In this document: in pieces, positions 41,028 to 51,125 of the stretch
Numbering within the stretch: the stretch's first letter is position 1
Layout: every line of letters starts with the position of its first letter
Assembly: GCA_022829145.1 (NCBI GenBank)
Contig: CM040763.1
Coordinates: forward strand, 5,762,641 to 5,826,640
Length of the DNA stretch: 64,000 nucleotides
Source: Albula goreensis
Taxonomy: Eukaryota > Chordata > Actinopteri > Albuliformes > Albulidae
Direction: 5' to 3'
The notes under the pieces: model-generated
What the model was told of the DNA's origin: nothing
Database searches by the model: none
The model's input: only the letters and a program-made list of their open reading frames with translations
Position numbers and translations under genes: made by a program

Positions 41028-51125
<10,098 letters not shown>

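Follow-up and report, generated by a model that had tools for sequence, protein, structure and literature searches.

A one-base deficit in exon 2 of smo in the Albula goreensis assembly is very probably a consensus error

Vertebrate Smoothened is a class F receptor, in which a Frizzled-type (Fz) cysteine-rich domain is combined with a Frizzled-type seven-transmembrane (7TM) domain. To our knowledge, there is no vertebrate without a standard Smoothened. Mouse Smo lacking the cysteine-rich domain retains its response to the agonist SAG while its Shh signalling is impaired, according to the accessible text of PMC3809587. False frameshifts and false gene losses caused by indels in GC-rich regions are documented in other assemblies, as described in the available part of PMC9516821. 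Here we give an account of smo in the deposited consensus of the bonefish Albula goreensis, where exon 2 is one base short, and of the explanations that may be offered for it.

Within the window, which is the whole stretch of 64,000 nucleotides that was analysed, smo was mapped as 12 exons on the + strand at positions 41028-51125, totalling 2489 coding nt. Exon 1 (41028-41289, 262 nt) carries the start codon and the start of the ectodomain, and ends one base into a codon with the donor GTAAGG. It is followed by exon 2 (42668-42872, 205 nt), exon 3 (44419-44628, 210 nt), exon 4 (45620-45792, 173 nt), exon 5 (46415-46634, 220 nt), exon 6 (47045-47168, 124 nt), exon 7 (47442-47534, 93 nt), exon 8 (47948-48056, 109 nt), exon 9 (48795-48980, 186 nt), exon 10 (49367-49515, 149 nt), exon 11 (49828-49962, 135 nt) and exon 12 (50503-51125, 623 nt), all on the + strand, the last of which encodes the C-terminus DADSDF and closes with the stop codon TGA at 51123-51125. 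AG stands ahead of each of exons 2-12 and GT behind each of exons 1-11. With one codon base left over from exon 1 and exon 3 opening on a whole codon, the phases call for an exon 2 of 206 nt, whereas 205 nt are present. An earlier sequence-only reading had claimed this deficit, the total of 2489 nt and a literal translation that stops at 44426-44428 in exon 3; exon mapping, phases and intron borders bear out the first two, and the stop was reproduced, giving a product of 158 aa.

The locus encodes both domains of vertebrate Smoothened and differs from it, in the consensus, by the missing exon 2 base. The 7TM domain PF01534 gave four matches in the window, and the cysteine-rich domain is present as two halves of exon 2 that match solved ectodomains in two frames. 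The 673 aa encoded by exons 3-12 are covered 100% by most of the fish Smo proteins listed (best 120 of 534), and Megalops atlanticus Smo is 90% identical across these exons. Two further features of the window were recorded. A tspan33-type gene, which we take to be tspan33, lies upstream of smo at 20133-32937 on the + strand, with seven exons joinable in one phase, for which splice sites were picked among several candidates; a further exon, between 20225 and 26722, was not located. In intron 2 of smo, a stretch at 44048-44095 ends in GCAGACGCTTTTATCCAAAGCGACGTA, presumably a repeat common in teleost genomes.

Exon 2 encodes the cysteine-rich domain in one frame up to LLCA and in the next frame from VYMPK on, and both parts were compared with solved Smoothened structures. 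The upstream frame matched with E 7.3e-6 and the downstream frame (51 residues) with E 4.7e-24, which confirms the change of frame that had been read from the letters alone. In chain 4c79_A the upstream half corresponds to residues 64-80 (17 residues to LLCA) and the downstream half continues from 81; in chain 6ot0_R the two halves begin at 112 and 129, respectively. The G at 42720 is used in both frames, as the end of LLCA and the start of VYMPK. Since the halves abut without loss in both chains and share this G, the exon is exactly one base short, at 42718-42722 (+ strand), and the frame break lies within TGTGCGCGTGTAC. Runs of at least four identical bases occur in exon 2 only at 42680 and 42817; of the earlier suggestion of a homopolymer-type sequencing or assembly error, the homopolymer part is thus not supported, while the error itself is backed by the evidence given below. 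The G+C content of exon 2 is 61%, against 42% for the window.

The junction LLCA[V/I]YMP[K/R]C is uninterrupted in 120 of the 163 protein records compared. The remaining 43 are the public A. goreensis model AGOR_G00231610, two records in which the junction is substituted (P0021 and P0054, with LLCSVYMP and LLCGIYMP), P0077, and 39 short records (86-231 aa); the two of these that were inspected, P0122 and P0159, cease to resemble Smo where exon 1 ends. P0077, from Coregonus sp. 'balchen', has a jumbled stretch in place of exon 2.

For the conservation analysis, Albula Smo was aligned with 24 of the 163 records, chosen for breadth (23 full-length proteins and 212 residues of Aldrovandia), with the two frames of Albula exon 2 joined as protein. 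The other 24 fish sequences share 408 invariant columns, and Albula departed at none of them. The same test gave 0 to 14 departures in the 23 full-length species, and because eight of these also stood at 0, it is a permissive one. The terminal branch of Albula was 0.037 long and ranked fifth from the shortest among 25 tips, a count that includes the outgroup with its branch of 0 from rooting. With the other 11 exons and the splice sites intact, these results agree with the earlier statement that the rest of the gene is free of decay. Outside the break, the aligned residues thus give no sign of decay or relaxed constraint, although a very young pseudogene or allele would pass as well.

The public gene model AGOR_G00231610 (P0001, 760 aa) is 100% identical to the protein of exons 3-12 over 673 aa and carries PF01534, with no Fz domain listed. 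It uses as its first exon a stretch of intron 1 at 42232-42285 (+ strand, 18 residues), which we judge spurious, and reads exon 2 in the downstream frame; consequently it contains neither the true start nor the opening half of the cysteine-rich domain. The true exon 1 is apparently missing from it because of the frame break. The model illustrates the effect of the break on annotation and is no independent support for a shortened protein.

The sequence-only reading had allowed for a second smo that would make a broken copy tolerable, and the genome was searched for one with exon 2 DNA and with the Frizzled profile. Exon 2 and its flanks (301 bases) gave a single match in the 931,924,363 bases of the assembly. 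The Frizzled profile gave 20 matches, four of them on the contig of the window (C23), all within the window, and 16 on other contigs. Thirteen of these 16 were read and look like Frizzled genes; the remaining three are smaller matches, to downstream exons adjoining multi-exon Frizzled genes. Neither a duplicate smo nor an alternative-haplotype copy was therefore found by these searches, which score only the best candidates in an assembly that may be incomplete.

Among relatives, the Smo record of Aldrovandia affinis (AAFF_G00357010, P0121, 229 aa) is normal through the exon 2 junction and goes out of frame in exon 3, where YIA is followed by FSAPSHSSAPSSHW, resembling exon 3 of the window read one base over. 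The pattern of this record, known from protein alone, resembles what one missing base would give. The gene is the same, and the affected exon is again otherwise conserved; the frame is lost in exon 3, as against exon 2 in A. goreensis. The AGOR_G, AAFF_G and GJAV_G records have a locus-name style in common and, judging by this naming, the A. goreensis and A. affinis assemblies apparently come from one project. With two smo genes broken at different points and named in one style, a sequencing method common to both is a simpler explanation than the loss of an essential gene twice. We take the source of the A. goreensis assembly to be Parey et al. 2023 (Science). The accessible text of PMC12492003 cites Parey et al. 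2023 for Synaphobranchus kaupii and Gymnothorax javanicus. A literature search found no paper on how the A. goreensis assembly was sequenced, and a search on smoothened frameshifts or pseudogenes in fish genomes also found none. In Gymnothorax javanicus (GJAV_G00164270, P0004) the first ~40 residues are unlike those of other fish Smo and the end of exon 1 is alike, possibly reflecting another break, in exon 1. A genome exists for Albula glossodonta (PMC10038134, in its accessible part); no Smo of this species is named among the matches listed (best 120 of 534, all 43, and best 120 of 187), many rows of which are nameless.

Similar single-base breaks occur in other genes of the same assembly, namely in the protocadherins, and none was seen in 13 Frizzled exons. 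With ~800 codons in a single exon, the variable exons of protocadherins make breaks easy to see. The protocadherin profile gave 150 rows (53 in the C6 cluster, 91 on contig C2 and 6 elsewhere), two of which had an internal stop in the match; open frames were shorter than 740 codons in 3 of the 53 rows of C6 and 37 of the 91 rows of C2. These 40 short-frame exons were chosen and aligned, with frame shifts allowed, to intact paralogs covering approximately the first 620 residues. Of 27 intact control loci, which were selected for long frames and so test the alignment and not the error rate, five gave shifts, all in the first 70 residues, and counting was accordingly limited to positions beyond residue 100. 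There, 69 single-base shifts were found in 35 of the 40 exons, of which 56 were missing-base and 13 extra-base shifts (an extra base may equal two missing ones), and 21,551 aligned codons contained one in-frame stop. Decay without selection would be expected to leave many nonsense codons as well; shifts that are nearly purely single-base, mostly missing bases, with almost no stops, resemble consensus errors. In the protocadherin cluster at 0.63-1.12 Mb of C2 (L046-L082), most short frames arise via single-base shifts. The cluster has the appearance of a tandem region that was poorly polished; L081 and L082 in it, with several mixed shifts, could be true pseudogenes.

Error rates were estimated from protocadherins and Frizzled genes. 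Thirty protocadherin exons with the top domain scores, chosen regardless of frame, contained 4 missing-base shifts in 47,979 nt, a rate of 8.3e-5 per base, which predicts 0.21 such shifts in a sequence of 2489 nt. From C6 alone, 4 shifts (L083 and L084) over 53 exons of ~2.4 kb give a rough figure of ~0.08 expected per smo-length coding sequence. The 13 Frizzled exons (6799 codons, 20.4 kb) had no frame break, one row having a TAG at the extreme end of its match, which coincides with the end of the exon; this null count is still compatible with up to ~1.5e-4 per base. Given the unbroken Frizzled exons, error rates may be lower in unique genes, smo among them, than in protocadherins, which as tandem paralogs may be less well polished. 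The 7tm_1 receptors were dropped as a rate control, for the best 147 of 1236 candidates were scored, which favours intact genes; a stop lay inside the match in 3 of these 147.

A real break would have to be reconciled with an essential gene. The consensus may have captured a rare recessive loss-of-function allele present in one copy in the sequenced fish, since the consensus is haploid, and the intact remainder of smo is what a very young allele would leave; we nevertheless consider this unlikely. Mutation-selection balance is expected to keep a recessive lethal at any one named essential gene at ~1e-3 or less per haplotype, against ~0.08-0.2 errors expected per coding sequence from the protocadherin rates, and the search found no copy of exon 2 from a second haplotype in the assembly. 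In favour of such an allele, recessive lethals as a class are common, with at least one per individual across the species studied, according to the accessible text of PMC12974806. A decayed duplicate in the window, with an intact smo elsewhere, would reconcile the broken frame with viability, and is the least probable of the readings considered: exon 2 with its flanks has one DNA match, the Frizzled-profile matches on other contigs are as described above, and the other 11 exons are without decay. Loss of purifying selection in the remaining coding sequence, the mark of a pseudogene, was not seen (no changes at the invariant columns, on a short branch).

It is also very improbable that the break is fixed or common in A. 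goreensis and tolerated through recoding or through a shortened Smo, without the normal start and with half of the cysteine-rich domain. The consensus itself and the 760-aa public model without a listed Fz domain speak for such a state, which, if true, would make this fish a vertebrate without standard Smoothened. Against it stand the lack of relaxed constraint in the alignment and the intron-1 origin of the first exon of the public model. None of the splicing or recoding routes tested would rescue the frame: the sole in-frame AG after the break would start the exon at 42850 and lose most of exon 2, skipping of exon 2 leaves the frame broken, and the slippery heptamer X XXY YYZ, the motif of programmed -1 ribosomal frameshifting, is absent from exon 2. 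The impaired Shh signalling of mouse Smo without its cysteine-rich domain indicates that a shortened Smo would not be neutral, and in smo-/- zebrafish embryos, which serve as an experimental background, normal muscle specification must be restored, as described in the available part of PMC8096101.

Judged from the deposited consensus, we therefore regard the exon 2 deficit as very probably a one-base consensus or assembly error and not a broken gene, on the grounds of the absence of decay, the similar breaks of this assembly, the break in Aldrovandia affinis and the absence of a second copy. The gene would be the ordinary single smo of A. goreensis, from which the consensus would have lost one base at the Ala/Val codon boundary of LLCA|VYMP through a one-base deletion error like those seen elsewhere in the assembly; the base would be present in the animal, whose gene would encode a normal Smoothened. 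The unbroken Frizzled exons, the seven joinable tspan33 exons, a site that is not a long homopolymer and the permissive conservation test count against this reading. In the accessible part of PMC9516821, single-base indels in GC-rich exons likewise derailed an intact gene and its annotation; those cases come from earlier Sanger and Illumina assemblies.

As biology, the exon 2 break most likely matters little; it matters as data. Without the true exon 1 and the first half of the cysteine-rich domain, AGOR_G00231610 would mislead comparative studies of Hedgehog signalling and any screen for lost genes, and the single-base breaks in one protocadherin cluster are a warning against calling gene losses from this assembly without reads.
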